Shown here in pieces: positions 1 through 42,404 of a stretch of DNA of 64,000 nt (the stretch's first letter is position 1; every line of letters begins with the position of its first letter). This DNA comes from Thermoplasmata archaeon. Its GTDB lineage: Archaea; Thermoplasmatota; Thermoplasmata; Lutacidiplasmatales; UBA184. The notes beneath the pieces were generated by a model. It worked only from the letters and a program-made list of their open reading frames with translations. It made no database searches and was not told the origin of the DNA. Made by a program: the position numbers and the translations under genes. The stretch is from the NCBI GenBank assembly GCA_021817605.1, contig JAKAUN010000015.1, positions 1-64,000 of the forward strand, written 5' to 3'.

Positions 1-127
1 TTATCCCCGTCTCGAGGGCAGATTGTCCGCGTGTTACTGAGCAGTGCGCCGAGGGCTTACCCCTCTCGACTCGCATGGCTTAAGCGAACTCCAATAGCGG
101 TGCCCGCCGGCAGGATCAACCGGATTG
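1..127 (-). rRNA. 16S ribosomal RNA, 5' end (gene truncated by window start)
   Basis: Reverse complement reads AATCCGGTTGATCCTGCCGGCGGGCACCGCTATTGGAGTTCGCTTAAGCCATGCGAGTCGAGAGGGG..., matching the conserved archaeal 16S 5' end. Confidence 0.96.
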
Positions 128-3293: not shown

Positions 3294-6082
3294 TCGCCTC
3301 CGAACTCGGGGCCCTCTTCCGGGGCTCCGACCTCCTCGGCCTCCTCCTCTTCGGCCTCCTCCTCGAGCTGCGCCTCCGCCTGGAGGTCCATCTCCTCCTC
3401 GGCGACCGGTGGGGCACCCCCGGAGCCTTCGCCCTTTCGCTCGCCGGCGGGGCGGACGCGCCGTCCGAGGACCTGGCTCAGGACCTCGTCCAGCGGGACC
3501 GGCTGGCCCTGGAACGAGCGCGCCGGGTCGATGCCGTCCTCGCCGTAGCGGTACTCGATAACGGTGCCGGCGGTGTTGCGGACGGTCCCGTCCTCGGCGA
3601 CCTTGAGGTCCTCGAGGGCGTTGATGAGCCTCCGCTGCATGTAGCCCGAGCGGCTCGTGCGCACCGCGGTGTCGACCAGCGACTCGCGGCCCCCCATCGA
3701 GTGGAAGAAGTACTCCGTCGGGAGGAGACCGCGCTTGTAGCTCGAGCTGACGAACCCGCGCGAGTCCGCGCCCAGGTCTCCCCGCTGGAAGTGCGGGAGG
3801 GTCCGCGCGACGTAGCCCCTGAGGAGCCGCTCGCCGCGGACCGACTGCTGGCCGACCGCCCCGGCCATCTGGGTGAGGTTGAGCATCGAGCCCCGGGCGC
3901 CGGACTTCGCCAGGATCACCGCGGGATTCTCCATCCCGAGGTAGCGGCCCGCGATGTCCCCGGCCGAGTCGCGTGCCTGGCCGAGCTCGCGTCGGACCAT
4001 CACCTCGAGCGTCTCCTCGAGCGAGCGGCCCGGCATCTGCTCGAGCTCGCCCTTGCGGTACTGCTCGACCAGCTCGTTCACCGTGAGCCGGGCGCCCGAG
4101 AGCGCCTGGTCGATCTCCTTCTGCGCCCCTTCGGGGACGTCCTCGTCATCGATGCCCGTGGAGAGCCCCTTGAGGGCGATCGCGGTGATCGCAAGGCGGC
4201 TCATCTCGTCCAGGAACTGGCGGGCCCGCGACATGCCGTTGTTGCGGGCGATCGCGTCCAGTACGGCTCCCTTCTCGTAGGCGATCGCCTTCTTGTCGAT
4301 CGCCCCGGCCTTGAGCACGCCGCGCTCGATGACGACCCAGGCGTCGTGCTTGCAGGCGAGCGGAGAGCAGTCGCATCGGGCCCAGATGTTCGAGCGGAAC
4401 TCGAGGGTGAGGTCGCTCGGAAGGGTGAGCGAGAAGAGCTGCTTTCCGCTCCACGCCGCCTCGCCGGCCTTGTCCTTGCCGGACGGCGGGGGGATGGGGT
4501 AGTTGAGCTTGGAAAGGAGGTAGGTGACCTCGCTGCGCGAGAACGACGGGTTCTGGTAGGTGAGCAGGAAGGCGGCGGTGATGTGGTCGTGGAGCATCCC
4601 GATGATGGGGCCGCCGTAGCGGGGCGAGAGGATGTGCTCCTCGACCTTCATCAGGACCTTCGCCTCGGCCCGTGCCTCCTGGCTCTGGAGGACGTGGAGG
4701 TTCATCTCGTCGCCATCGAAGTCCGCGTTGTAGGGCGGGCAGTCGCACAGGTTGAACCGGAAGGTCTTGTGCGGCAGGATGCGCACGAAGTGCGCCATCA
4801 TGCTCATCCGGTGGAGGCTCGGCTGCCGGTTGAACAGCACGATGTCGCCGTCGACGAGCTGACGCTCGACGATCGAGCCCGGCGTCACGAGCTCGGCGCA
4901 CGCCTCGGCGTTCTTGTCCATCACCTTGATCCGCTGGCCGTCCTCGCGGACGATGTAGTTGACCCCGCAGCGGTAGCCGCCCTCCGGCCCGGTGGCGGCG
5001 GGGGACGGGCCGCGCTTCACGAGCTCCTTGGCGATCTCCTGGTTGTGGAGGGTCACCTCGAGCGGCACCGTGAGGCCACGCGCGATCTCGACCGGAACGC
5101 CGACCTCGTTGATGGAGAGAAGCGGGTCGGGGCTGATGACCGTGCGGGCGGAGAAGTTCACACGCTTTCCCGAGAGGTTCGAGCGGAACCGGCCGTCCTT
5201 GCCCTTGAGCCTCTGGGCGAGGGTCTTGAGCGGCCTCCCCGAGCGGTGACGGGCCGGGGGGATCCCGCTCGTCTGGTTGTCGAAGTAGGTCGTGACGTGG
5301 TACTGCAAGAGCTCCCAGAGGTCCTCGACGACCAGCTGGGGGGCGCCCATGTCGCGGTTCTCGCGCAGCCGCTGGTTGATCCTCAGCACATCCACGAGCT
5401 TGTGGGTGAGGTCGTCCTCGCTGCGTTCGCCGCTCTCCAAGGTGATGGAAGGGCGGACCTGGACGGGCGGGACGGGCAGCACGGTGAGGACCATCCACTC
5501 CGGCCGGCCGAAGCGCGGGTTGAGGTCGAGGGCCACCACGTCCTCGTCAGGGATCCGTTCCAAGCGCGCGCGGACCTCCTTCGGGGTGATCTTGTGCTGG
5601 TCCTCGCGGAAGGTCGTCGGCTTGTCGAGGACGATCTTGTGCTGGATCTCGTGGCAGAACGGGCAGGCGCGCTCTTCCTTTCCCTCGCGCGAGCGGGGAG
5701 CGGGGGCCGCCCCCTCCCCGTCGGAAGAGCTCTCGCTTCGGGAGCTCGGGGCATCGGGGAGGATGCGACCGCACGCGCGGCAGGTCGACTGGAGCAGCCG
5801 CTTGATCTCCTTGGCGTAGCCTACGTGGATCACCGGCATGGCGAGCTCGATGATGCCGAAGTGGCCCGGGCACTCGTTGACCCGGCCGCCGCAGGTGCGG
5901 CAGCGCAGGTTCGGCTCGATGACGCCGAGGTGGAGGTCCATGAGCCCCATCTCGATCGGATAGCCGTCGTCGTCGTAGGTGTCGGCGGTGATGATCTTGA
6001 CCGCGCTCATCCGCCGGATCTCGTCCGGCGAGAGGAAGGCGAACTGCAGCCCGCGGATCTTCTTGGAGAGTCCCTGCGCCAT
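3290..6082 (-). CDS. rpoA1: DNA-directed RNA polymerase subunit A'
   Basis: [14 protein letters not shown] catalytic motif and zinc-binding N terminus; ATGA overlap with rpoA2. Confidence 0.98.
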
Positions 6083-6093
6083 CGTGCTTCCCC

Positions 6094-9000
6094 CTAACGC
6101 ATCTCCTCGAGCTGGAGGCGCATGATCACGCCGAGGCTGATCAGCTCCTCAAGGAGGAGCTTGAACGAGTAGCTCATCTCGACCGGATAGATCGACGAGG
6201 TGTTGCCGCAGCTCGGGCAACGCAGCGAGTTCGCCCGCGAGTCGGGGATGGCGATGTGCCCGCACTCGGTGTTGCCGCAGACGTACTGGATCGTCCCGTC
6301 CGACTCGTCGAGCAAGCGGTCCTTGATCACCATCGCGACGCCGTGGCCGATGAGGCAGTCGCGCTCCATCTCTCCGAACCGGAGCCCGCCCTGGCGCGAG
6401 CGACCCTCGGTCGGCTGGCGCGTGAGGATCTGCACCGGCCCGCGCGAGCGCATATGCATCTTGCCCGCGACCATGTGGTGGAGCTTCTGGTAGTAGATGA
6501 CGCCGACAAAGATCTCCGCCTCGAACCGCCGCCCGGTGAGGCCGTCGTAGAGCGTCTCGCGCCCGGACGGGTGGAAGCCGAGCGACTTGAGCTCCTCGCG
6601 AAGCGCCTCCTCGCGCGTCCCGGAGAACGCCGTCCCGTCGATCGTGCGGCCTTCGAGAGCTCCCACCTTGCCGCCGAGCATCTCGAGCACGTGGGCGACC
6701 GTCATCCGCGACGGGATCGCGTGCGGGTTGATCAGAAGGTCCGGGGTGAGCCCGCTGCGGGTGAACGGGAGGTTCTCCTGCGGGACCGTGAGCCCGATGA
6801 CCCCCTTCTGGCCGTGCCGGCTCGCGAACTTGTCGCCGAGCTCGGGGACCCGCTGGTTGCGGACCTTCACCTTGACGAGCTTGGAGATGTTCTCCCCTTC
6901 GGTGAGGATGACGTTGTCGACCCAGCCGGACTCGCCGAAGCGCACGGTGACGCTCGTCTCCCGGCGCTTCTGCGGGGTCAACAGGTCGGTCTTCTCCTCG
7001 AGGAACCTCGGCGGGCTCGTCTTGCCGACGAGCACGTCGCCCTCCGAGACCTCGAGCTCGGGGAAGATGAGGCCGTCCTCGCCGAGGTTGCGATAGGAGG
7101 TGTCGACGCGGGCTCCCGCGACGTCCGGCCGCGGGATCTCGAAGCGGTCCTCCTGGCCCCCCGGGTACTTGCGCTCCTCCCCGCGGTAGGTCCGGAAGAA
7201 GGACGAGCGGCCAAGTCCGCGATCGATCGCCCCCTTGGAGAAGACGAGGGCGTCCTGCATGTTGTAGCCCTCGTAGGAGAGCACGGCGACCACAAAGTTC
7301 TGGCCGGCGGGCCGCTCGGTGAAGTGGACGTAGCGCATCGTCTGCGTCTGGAGGATCGGCGCCTCGGGGTAGTGCAGGAGGTGGCCCCGGGTGTCCGGGC
7401 GGCGCCGGTAGTTCACCGACTCGACGCCGAGGGCCTGCTTGGCCATCCCCGAGCCCATCGTGTTGCGGGGCGCGGCGTTGTGCTCGGGGTAGGGAATGAG
7501 CCCGGTGCAGACACCGAGCATGAGGTTGGGATCGATCTCGAGATGGGTGTGGCGCTCGTTGATGAGGGCCCCGACGGGGAACTCCGCGTGGCAGAGGCCG
7601 CAGGCGACCAGGGGCTTGTCGCGCTTCTCGCCCATCGAGACCCAGCGGACGTCCGAGCGGGAGAGCGCCCGCTCGCACTTCGGACAGCGGTCGGGCGAGG
7701 AGAACGGGTCGATGGCGATGAGGGCATCCTCCTCCTCCTCGGCATCGGCCCACTCGACCTTCCCCTGGCGGATGAGGTCGCTGTACGCGAGCGTCCCCCG
7801 CCCGAGGTCGTCGAGGTCCGAGCGCGAGACGCGCGGCACTCCGCCCTTCACCACCACGAGCGGGCGGCGCAGGCGGCCCGAGTCGGAATGGACGATGACC
7901 TCGTTCATCACCTCGTCGTAGCGGACGTTGATCTCGTAGGTCCTGTCGCCGAGCGACGGGGAGAGCGTGCCGGTGCGGCGGCGCTCGCGGATCTCCTTGA
8001 CGAGCTCGAGTGGCTGGGAGTGGAGCCCGACCAGATTGCCGTTGACATAGACGCGCGCGGCGCGTCGTCCCTTGGCGCCGGTCGCCTCCTGGAAGACCTC
8101 CGGTCCGATCTCGCGGGTGTTGAGGTCGCGCAGGATGAGGGTGACCTCCTCCTCGTCCGCCCCTTCCGAGACATCGACGCAGAGAGCGTAGTTCTTCACG
8201 AGGCCGCAGTTCTGGCCCTCGGGCGTCTCGTTCGGGCAGAGCCGCCCCCACTGCGTCGGGTGGAGATCGCGCGCCTCGAAGTGCGGTTGGCTGCGCGTGA
8301 GAGGGCTCGTGACGCGGCGCAGGTGGCTGATCGTGGACATGTGGCTGGTCCGGTCGAGCACCTGGCTCACCCCCGCGCGGCCGCCGACCCAGTTGCCGGT
8401 CGCCAGCGCGTGGACGAGCCGCTGGGTGAGGAGGTCCGGCCGGATCGCGCTGGCGATCCGAAGGTCCTTCTTGCGGGCGAAGGAACGCTCCAGCTGGTAC
8501 TTGAGGTCCTTGAGCAGCAGCGAGAAGGCGACCCGGAAGAGGTCCTCCATGAGGTCGCCGGCGAGCTTGAGCCGCTTGTTGGCGTAGTGGTCCTTGTCGT
8601 CCTCCCCACGCACCTTGAGATGGAGCTCGAGGACCGTCCGCGCCATGCGCGCGAGGTAGAGCGCCTTCTTGAGGCGGTCGGCGCGCGTGTCGCCGAGGTG
8701 GGGGAGGAGCGAGCGGTCGAGGATGCCATCCACCTTCCGCTGGCGGTACTCCTTCGCCTGGCCCGTGGCGAACTTCTTCTCGAGGAAGAGGAGGGCGTCC
8801 TCCGTCGTCTGGATCCCCTCCGGCGGGTAGAGCTTCTTGGAGAGGCACTCCTCGAGGTTGACGTTGAGCAGATGCTTCATCGTCTGAACGAACGGCTCGT
8901 CCAGCGGGAGGAGCTCGCCGAGGACCGCCTGGAAGATCTCCTCGTCGTTCTTCATCCCGAGAGCTTTCATCAGGATCGCGAGCGGGATCTGGCCGCTCGC

Positions 9001-9765
9001 CGTCGGGACGGAGACCTGAAGGATCCCGTCCTTCTTCTTCTCCACGACCGTGAGGGAGCGGTAGCCGCCGCGCTGGCTGAACACCTTGGCGCTCTCGATC
9101 GGCGTGCCGTAGCGCTCGTTGAACTCGGCGAAGATGCGGTTGGGGGCGAGGTCCTCGAGGCTGATGATCACCCTCTCGGTCCCGCCGATGATGAAGTAGC
9201 CTCCCGGGTCGAGGGGGTCCTCGCCGTACTCGACCAGCTTGGCGCGGTACTCCTCGTCGGAGAGCCAGATCTGGTCGTCCTCGGTGATCTTGTAGCGGTT
9301 GAGGTTGCACGGACGGCTCTTGACCATGATCGGCAGGTCGCCGATGTGCACGTCCTCGGGGGCGCGCTCGACCCCGTTCTCCACGACGGTGACCTTGAGG
9401 TAGATGGGCGCCTGGTAGGTGAGGTTCCTCAGGCGCGCCTCCATCGGCGTGAGGGTCGGCTTCGAGCCGACGGGCTCCTTGACGAACGGGGCGCCGATGA
9501 AGATCGTCGGCTCGGCGGAGGGGTGGACGGCCCCCCGCGAGTCGCGCCGTCGGCCGACGCGCACGTAGATCGAGCTCTTCGTCTTCTGGACGTCGAGCCG
9601 GATGACCCCGCGCTCGCCGGAGTCCTCGCTGACGCGGGCCTCGTCGACGATCCGCTGCATCCGCGAGTTGGGATTGTCGCGGGTGGGCAGGAAGTCGTTG
9701 AAGCTGGCCAGGTGATGGTTGACGATCGACCTCTCGCGGAAGAAGGCATCCACTATCTCTCGCAT
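6094..9765 (-). CDS. rpoB: DNA-directed RNA polymerase subunit B (unsplit B''+B')
   Basis: 1223 aa continuous ORF with [44 protein letters not shown] and [13 protein letters not shown]. Confidence 0.98.
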
Positions 9766-9772
9766 CGTTCGG

Positions 9773-10111
9773 TTACTCCTCCCCCGCTGGGGCGACGATC
9801 ACCCGATAGGCGATCGCCTCGCCCGCGGTGGCGCTCGGCCGGCGGATCCGCACGAGGCGGCCGACCAGGCGCTCGCCGGACTCCTTGAGCGCCGTGTACT
9901 TCGGGTCGGTTTTTAGCCCCGGGTCGGCGACGAAGATCTTCGGCAGCCGTTCCGGGCTCGTCTTGAGTTCCGCGAGCACCTTGCGGGATTCCTCCTCGGT
10001 CAGGATCTCGTGGGGGGGAGCGAGATGGTGGGCGACGAACGGTCGCGTCGGAACGACGTGCTTGGCGGCGGTGCTCGTCTTGCGGCTGCGACGCGCGGGG
10101 CTGGGGGTCAC
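9773..10111 (-). CDS. rpoH: DNA-directed RNA polymerase subunit H (proposed GTG start after the tRNA)
   Basis: [45 protein letters not shown]; the 160-aa ORF in the track runs into the tRNA-Lys gene, so the in-frame GTG at 10111 is preferred. Confidence 0.85.
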
Positions 10112-10132: not shown

Positions 10133-10275
10133 CGGGCCCGGGGGGAGCTTCGGCGCGACCGTGCGGACCACGCACAGAGGCTCGTTCGAACCCCCGACCA
10201 CCTGGTTAAAAGCCAGATGCTCTGTGCCGGGCCTCCGGCGTCCCCGGACGGCCAACCGGACTGAGCTACGGGCCC
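10133..10275 (-). tRNA. tRNA-Lys(UUU) with two putative non-canonical introns (D-loop about 10225..10253; T-loop 10147..10184)
   Basis: Spliced model GGGCCCG TA GCTC AGTCCGGTTCA GAGC A TCTGG CTTTTAA CCAGG TGGTC GGGGG TTCGAAT CCCCC CGGGCCC G folds as a full cloverleaf. T-loop intron flanked by h GGGGG/CCCCC, H UUCG/CGAA, bulges AAC and GCU. Confidence 0.88.
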
Positions 10276-42096: not shown

Positions 42097-42158
42097 CCGG
42101 GCGACCCCGCGCGGGGAACCCCCCGGGGCGACGTGGCTCCTTGCGGCCGGCGCCGGAG

Positions 42159-42242
42159 CGCTGAGGGGGAGATTTGAACTCCCGTGGCGAGACCGCCACC
42201 AGCTTTCAAGGCTGGCGCCTTACCGGGCTAGGCTACCTCAGC
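42159..42242 (-). tRNA. tRNA-Ser(UGA)
   Basis: GCTGAGG...CCAGC CTTGAAA GCTGG, long variable arm GGCGGTCTCGCC, GGGAG TTCAAAT CTCCC, CCTCAGC G; no intron. Confidence 0.95.
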
Positions 42243-42303: not shown

Positions 42304-42404
42304 TGCAGGTGCCGGGAGGCTCGCGACGGGCGGAAGGCGCCCGTCGTTTCGAACCCGGGTGGTCAGCTTGGAGGGCTGACATCCTACCACTAGATTACAC
42401 CTGC
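42304..42404 (-). tRNA. tRNA-Gly(UCC) with a T-loop intron (42318..42347)
   Basis: GCAGGTG TA ATC TAGTGGTAG GAT G TCAGC CCTCCAA GCTGA ... CCGGG TTCGAA [30-nt intron] T CCCGG CACCTGC A. hBHBh' present: h CCGGG/CCCGG, H UUCG/CGAG, bulges AAA and CCU, h' CGACGGGCG/CGCCCGUCG. Confidence 0.93.

Follow-up and report, generated by a model that had tools for sequence, protein, structure and literature searches.

How a euryarchaeal genome could obtain a standard lysine tRNA from a gene interrupted in both its D-loop and its T-loop is the question raised by tRNA-Lys(UUU) in the stretch of DNA analysed here (64,000 nucleotides, hereafter the window), which is the beginning of contig 11 of its assembly. 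An earlier note, made from the letters of the window, had read the gene as carrying two non-canonical introns, one in each of these loops, in a lineage resembling the Euryarchaeota. The genome is that of a member of the Thermoplasmata, and both introns were borne out by bulge-helix-bulge (BHB) pairing, by covariation and by the loops of intron-less orthologues. We consider it very probable that both inserts of this gene, the sole AAA-reading tRNA-Lys gene found, are removed through their BHB motifs by the splicing endonuclease EndA and that the exons are joined by RtcB.

Read directly on the minus strand, the gene runs GGGCCCG-UA-GCUC-(D-loop + insert)-GAGC-A-UCUGG-CUUUUAA-CCAGG-UGGUC-GGGGG-(T-loop + insert)-CCCCC-CGGGCCC-G. 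The acceptor, D-, anticodon and T-stems are unbroken, and the inserts are confined to the D- and T-loops. The acceptor strand at 10275-10269 pairs with 10140-10134, the discriminator is the G at 10133, and the anticodon loop CUUUUAA occupies 10212-10206 with the anticodon at 10210-10208. This loop is continuous, and there is no intron at position 37/38, as the earlier note had said. When both introns were excised, all arms paired in a high-scoring cloverleaf. Splicing of a single intron was considered and rejected, since removing any one BHB yielded no good cloverleaf. ARAGORN made no call at this gene in the window, and the Rfam tRNA model scored below its cut-off in the window and gave only a 14.7-bit fragment in the whole-genome search. 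The Lys(UUU) query found one matching place in the 1.75-Mb assembly, which was scored 100% complete. An uninterrupted second tRNA-Lys(UUU), a prospect that the earlier note had raised against its own reading, was sought in the assembly and none was found; the sole other Lys gene found is an intact, uninterrupted Lys(CUU).

The features of the window are listed in the table. The rpoH gene lies 21 nt downstream of tRNA-Lys(UUU), and 28 of the 40 orthologues whose flanking sequence is long enough, uninterrupted ones among them, have an Rpb5-like reading frame that starts just downstream of the tRNA gene. Because this frame adjoins intron-bearing and intron-less copies alike, it supports the orthology of the Lys(UUU) genes. 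A promoter and terminator scan, with a pattern set not designed for archaea, gave no match. The 5' end of an archaeal 16S rRNA gene was observed at the contig edge (window positions 1-126, minus strand), likely an assembly break at the rRNA operon.

Table. Positions of the interrupted tRNA-Lys(UUU) gene, its introns, its neighbours and two further tRNA genes in the window.
Feature	Position	Strand	Remarks
tRNA-Lys(UUU) precursor gene, two introns	10133..10275	-	143 nt; 74 nt once spliced in the preferred D-loop register
T-loop intron of tRNA-Lys(UUU), site 59/60	10147..10184	-	38 nt; h GGGGG:CCCCC, H UUCG:CGAA; covariation; R1 match
D-loop intron of tRNA-Lys(UUU)	10224..10254	-	31 nt in the preferred register (29 nt, 10225-10253, in the register of the earlier note)
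rpoH (RNA polymerase subunit H/Rpb5)	9773..10111	-	GTG start; Pfam RNA_pol_Rpb5_C, E=6.8e-17
rpoB	6094..9765	-	seven Rpb2 domains; next after rpoH, same direction
tRNA-Ser(UGA), uninterrupted	42158..42242	-	control inside the window
tRNA-Gly(UCC)	42304..42404	-	T-loop 59/60 intron 42347-42318 (30 nt); strongest R1 match of the genome, E=1.6e-6

Both Lys introns have the 4-bp central helix and the two 3-nt bulges at the splice sites by which an archaeal BHB is recognised. In the T-loop motif, helix h has 5 bp and the central helix H has 4 bp, the bulges are AAC and GCU, and the product loop is UUCGAAU; the boundaries and the spliced loop given in the earlier note were exact. A covariance model of T-arm introns, R1, matched the gene at 10141-10195 (E=2.8e-5). 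In the T-loop alignment (A4), which comprised 21 sequences (eleven tRNA genes of the window's genome and ten Lys orthologues), 94% of the BHB cells were paired and 56 cells were altered on both sides. Neither the pairing score nor the covariation score was matched by any of 500 shuffles, and the signal vanished when the partner was shifted by 1-3 columns. The T-stem contributes part of this covariation; the intron-internal helix h' also covaries, at all four pairs. Measured against the strict hBHBh' criterion, h is always 5 bp and h' reaches 4-5 bp in many orthologues, with one mismatch in the window's copy, where one h' pair is A.G. The minimum-energy state of the isolated T-arm from the window differs from the ideal BHB motif. 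Judged by their pairing, the T-loop introns appear to be nearly strict BHBs (hBHBh').

The D-loop junction is less certain than that of the T-loop, as the earlier note had cautioned, and two BHB registers fit. In the register proposed there, H is CCGG:CCGG, the intron is 10253-10225 and the spliced loop is AGUCCGGUUCA; pairing is perfect in the window and holds in almost all orthologues. One base outward on each side, H becomes UCCG:CGGC with one mismatch, the intron is 10254-10224 and the spliced loop is AGUCCGGUA, which matches, in form and in length, the intact D-loops of orthologues that have no intron there (L181, L186-L188, L192 and L194). The intact loops of intron-less orthologues, AGCCAGGUA and AGCUAGGUA, are of this same form. 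The outer pair of the 10254-10224 register covaries (CG 14, GC 2, AU 1, GU 1, UA 1, unpaired 4). In the window's own copy this pair is U.C, so the register of the earlier note pairs better locally. Going by the orthologue loops and the covarying outer pair, we judge that the intron is probably 10254-10224; the intron first proposed thus stands, with its junction probably displaced by one base on each side. Among 23 diverse orthologues, 96% of the cells of the D-loop BHB were paired and 52 were altered on both sides, and here too no shuffle in 500 reached the observed pairing or covariation score and shifts of the partner by 1-3 columns abolished the signal. Helix h' is good, and the outer side, between the D-stem and H, forms a 2x3 internal loop with no clean outer helix; on this pairing the intron would clearly be classed as a relaxed (HBh') motif.

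Of 101 relatives, 81 gave a match to Lys(UUU); among the genomes of the same genus, 52 of 60 did. Both introns were present in all 51 fully read same-genus copies (the window's included), and the length of the D-loop intron was constant. The 18 copies from other families comprised 11 with both introns, one with the D-loop intron only, two with the T-loop intron only and four with neither; double-intron genes were found in eight families among these copies and in a ninth (G065), that is, in at least nine other families. In orthologues missing one or both introns the loops are exactly the predicted spliced products, and hardly any variation is seen in the acceptor and anticodon arms over dozens of genomes. 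These results bear on two readings of the locus that dispense with splicing. A decaying pseudogene, with AAA read by another tRNA, would agree with the two inserts and with the lack of a call by generic tRNA tools, but it would have to be reconciled with a sole UUU-anticodon gene in which all arms are paired, the acceptor and anticodon arms hardly vary and compensatory changes lie inside the inserts; this reading was rejected on the orthologue evidence and is very improbable. As splicing is predicted from sequence, the inserts might instead be permanent D- and T-loop expansions kept in the mature tRNA. The canonical loops of the intron-less orthologues, identical to the predicted product, and the conservation of the BHB bulges and H argue against such expansions, and giant T-loops would then be required in every other tRNA of the genome that has this 59/60 insert. 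The orthologues led us to reject this reading as well, as scarcely credible.

Judged by sequence, the non-canonical introns would not be peculiar to Lys(UUU) but genome-wide and class-wide. We identified 45 tRNA genes in the genome, a count that rests on the stretches around search matches, and 21 of them carry 23 introns, 19 of which are non-canonical (14 T-loop, 5 D-loop). This falls slightly short of a full set, because tRNA-Ile(GAU) was not found in the genome search. T-loop introns at 59/60 interrupt Ser(GCU), Ser(GGA), Ser(CGA), Gln(CUG), Ala(GGC), Gly(UCC), Arg(UCG), Arg(UCU), Asp, His, Asn, Glu(CUC), Lys(UUU) and Leu(UAG), and H has only three pairs in several of them (Ser(GCU), Ser(GGA), Ser(CGA) and His). 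D-loop introns occur in Lys(UUU), Leu(UAG), initiator Met, Arg(GCG) and Pro(UGG), the exact junction positions being less sure in the last two, and canonical 37/38 introns in Trp, elongator Met, Tyr and Leu(UAA). Two introns each are carried by Lys(UUU) and Leu(UAG).

Several of these genes have features of their own. In tRNA-Leu(UAG) (contig 12, about 4850-4995; L035 430-600), the same double arrangement of D-loop and T-loop introns is seen in G018 and G191. The 37/38 intron of tRNA-Trp(CCA) (contig 8, 104850-105500; L041) is 87 nt long and, to judge by that length, may be the usual C/D-box guide RNA intron. In Arg(GCG) and Pro(UGG) (L033, L242) the D-loop introns share the initial letters GUAGCUACGG, possibly a trace of intron copying between tRNA genes. 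The anticodon loop of tRNA-Gly(UCC) in the window is CCUCCAA, with C33 against the near-universal U33, and is CUUCCAA in two relatives of the same family; Glu(UUC) of the same genome (contig 14:41137-41211; L018) has CCUUCGA, likewise with C33.

The R1 model gave 12 matches at E <= 2e-4 in the window's genome and a 13th at 0.01, all in tRNA genes, with the next at E=2.0; R1 counts are lower bounds, because the model misses Ala(GGC). Of 151 Thermoplasmata genomes, 98 gave matches; every genome of the window's family (30/30) had 5-13, those of other families mostly had 1-4, and some families had none. Outside the Thermoplasmata, matches were fewer and mostly weaker. A same-genus genome and a genome from another genus of the family (G191) have introns in largely the same isotypes, which would be expected if the introns are stably maintained and spliced. 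A genome of a different Thermoplasmata family (G096) has two-intron candidates in Lys(UUU), Lys(CUU), Arg(CCG) and Arg(UCU) (L250, L253, L257 and L260).

EndA is represented in the genome by one reading frame of 353 aa (GTG start) with two PF01974 and two PF02778 stretches, and the catalytic-type motifs GFKYG, HARYLVH and VRKEF occur in the C-half only. A second EndA subunit gene was sought in the genome and none was found. By its domain order the enzyme is predicted to be alpha'2-type: a single gene encodes two endonuclease repeats in tandem, of which only the second has the catalytic motifs. The loops tied to broad specificity, the Crenarchaea-specific (CSL) and the ARMAN-specific (ASL), were sought in the catalytic half as an insertion that has a conserved Lys and lies just before the LxLSLxE stretch, and are absent; aligned with A. 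pernix 3p1z and with 3p1y (PLDVEKPRGADFEG), the A. fulgidus chain bearing a grafted CSL, EndA (YGSRVGHRLELSL) has no insertion. An epsilon2-type EndA, the three-unit chain of about 390 aa known from ARMAN, was rejected given the 353 aa, the two repeats and a TM of 0.62 to 4fz2; the ARMAN loop sits at a position analogous to the Crenarchaea-specific loop (PMC12397907). The monomer model of a 73%-identical EndA (mean pLDDT 93) was closest to the EndA of Methanopyrus kandleri (TM 0.86), compared with 0.76 for A. fulgidus and 0.63 for T. acidophilum. The nearest named relatives are Thermoplasmata MAGs including UBA184 and AcS/SubAcS genomes, up to 77% identical over the best segment. The Lutacidiplasmatales paper (PMC9287336) uses the AcS names, and it is by these isolate names, rather than by a tree, that the genome is placed in that order or near it. 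One RtcB gene is present.

With these enzymes, the Lys(UUU) transcript would fold so that each insert lies in a BHB motif, the resident two-domain EndA, expected to act as a homodimer, would cleave both bulges of each motif, and RtcB would ligate the exons into a standard tRNA-Lys with the D-loop AGUCCGGUA and the T-loop UUCGAAU. The Lys introns would be old, conserved inserts common to many Thermoplasmata families, and would belong to a wider complement of introns in the T- and D-loops of tRNAs of this lineage. Transcription, cleavage and ligation, like the exact D-loop junction and the acceptance of the relaxed D-loop motif by EndA, are what we infer. Since reviews hold that alpha2-type euryarchaeal enzymes cleave canonical BHB introns only (PMC4090602, PMC4033280), the D-loop intron in particular would be hard to remove.

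The earlier note had attributed the introns to a broadened splicing endonuclease. That is not established: the genome has a single alpha'2-type EndA without CSL or ASL, the T-loop motifs are nearly strict, and only the D-loop motif is clearly relaxed. Because their motifs are close to strict BHBs, the T-loop introns alone demand no broadened enzyme; the D-loop introns would demand one more strongly. The chance that EndA is an ordinary strict alpha'2 enzyme, and that the introns persist because near-strict BHBs can be cleaved wherever they are located, falls a little short of even. Its lack of a CSL or ASL insertion is in keeping with this, as are the T-loop introns (h 5 bp, H mostly 4, h' often 4-5 bp, 3-nt bulges) and the homodimeric Ferroplasma enzyme, which cuts minimal BHB substrates (PMC8707768). 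The D-loop introns, HBh' with a 2x3 internal loop in place of a clean outer helix, are harder to fit, and so is the three-pair H of the T-loop introns in Ser(GCU), Ser(GGA), Ser(CGA) and His. Nearly an even prospect, too, is that the EndA of the clade has been moderately broadened through its full-length, catalytic-like N-terminal half, without CSL or ASL. Intron-rich lineages have an EndA of about 350-363 aa, in which the N-half scores as PF01974 and contains a nearly invariant PRG..KTP..W...ER stretch, whereas three sampled intron-less lineages have a short EndA (284-289 aa) without that stretch; the model, moreover, is closest to the M. kandleri enzyme, termed 'constrained broad' in PMC6379350. 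This suggests that EndA length tracks intron presence. However, the correlation spans few, phylogenetically clustered lineages, and it is a lead rather than a rule because two genomes, G068 and G080, have a long EndA and no T-loop intron match. A wider proposal, which we offer tentatively and hold to be rather doubtful, is that most uncultured Thermoplasmata have a further functional kind of EndA, a natural full-length chain that joins a catalytic-like half to a catalytic one and, without CSL or ASL, accepts relaxed BHBs in D- and T-loops. Such an enzyme would have allowed long-lived non-canonical introns throughout the class, the Lys(UUU) double intron being an ancestral marker of them, and the introns would have been lost in lineages whose N-half was shortened.

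By the accepted rule, non-canonical tRNA introns go with an (alpha beta)2 or epsilon2 EndA carrying an extra loop, and in euryarchaea whose enzymes are alpha4 or alpha2 the introns are single and canonical. A class that breaks this rule would make it possible to test directly what determines the substrate range of EndA: the loop, the subunit layout or how strict the motif is. Generic tRNA callers can miss many tRNAs in such genomes, as ARAGORN missed Lys(UUU), which bears on claims of tRNA absence. As a kind, BHB introns of the D-loop and of site 59/60 are already known, since they are found in other archaea, including the multi-intron genes of Asgard archaea. Their abundance in a euryarchaeal class with an alpha'2, loop-less EndA appears to be unreported in the literature searched; our searches gave no earlier report of non-canonical introns in Thermoplasmata, and single-case mentions in older surveys are possible.

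Euryarchaeota with alpha4 or alpha2 enzymes have fewer than 10% of their tRNA genes interrupted, each by one intron at the canonical place (PMC4090602), and two euryarchaea, M. kandleri and Methanothermobacter, have multi-intron genes (PMC4033280). Efficient cleavage of relaxed motifs has been tied to (alpha beta)2 and epsilon2 enzymes (PMC6379350), and homodimers have also been credited with it (PMC8707768). The Thermoproteales, as Sugahara 2008 and Fujishima 2010 are cited in PMC4090602, PMC4033280 and PMC8450103, resemble the present genome in non-canonical BHB introns, including those at 59/60 and in the D-arm, in more than one intron per gene and in a large interrupted share; by these accounts their endonucleases are (alpha beta)2, whereas a single alpha'2-type gene without CSL is found here, in a euryarchaeal class. 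The statement in the earlier note that multi-intron tRNAs of the 59/60 type are known mainly from Thermoproteales is out of date, for multi-intron genes occur in Asgard archaea, with 92-95% of tRNA genes interrupted (PMC11291895). Those genomes (Atabeyarchaeia, Freyarchaeia) are likewise metagenome-derived and have multiple introns at non-canonical positions, but they belong to a different phylum and most of their tRNA genes are interrupted, compared with 21 of the 45 identified here. Korarchaeum cryptofilum, the only alpha2 archaeon listed with non-canonical introns, shares with this genome a homodimeric alpha2-type EndA (the homodimer being expected here), but its EndA has an extra loop, of the (alpha beta)2-specific type, that is absent from ours (PMC4033280). 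The EndA of M. kandleri, the best structural match, also lacks CSL and ASL; according to Kaneta 2018, as reported in PMC6379350, it cleaves the relaxed motif weakly, and it consists of two separate subunits, fused only for crystal 5x89, whereas the two halves are one natural chain here. D-arm and T-arm introns in one gene, as in Lys(UUU), are also described for tRNA-Ile(UAU) of Cyanidioschyzon merolae, which, as far as PMC9602550 sets it out, is a eukaryotic gene with a third intron in the anticodon arm, where Lys(UUU) has none.
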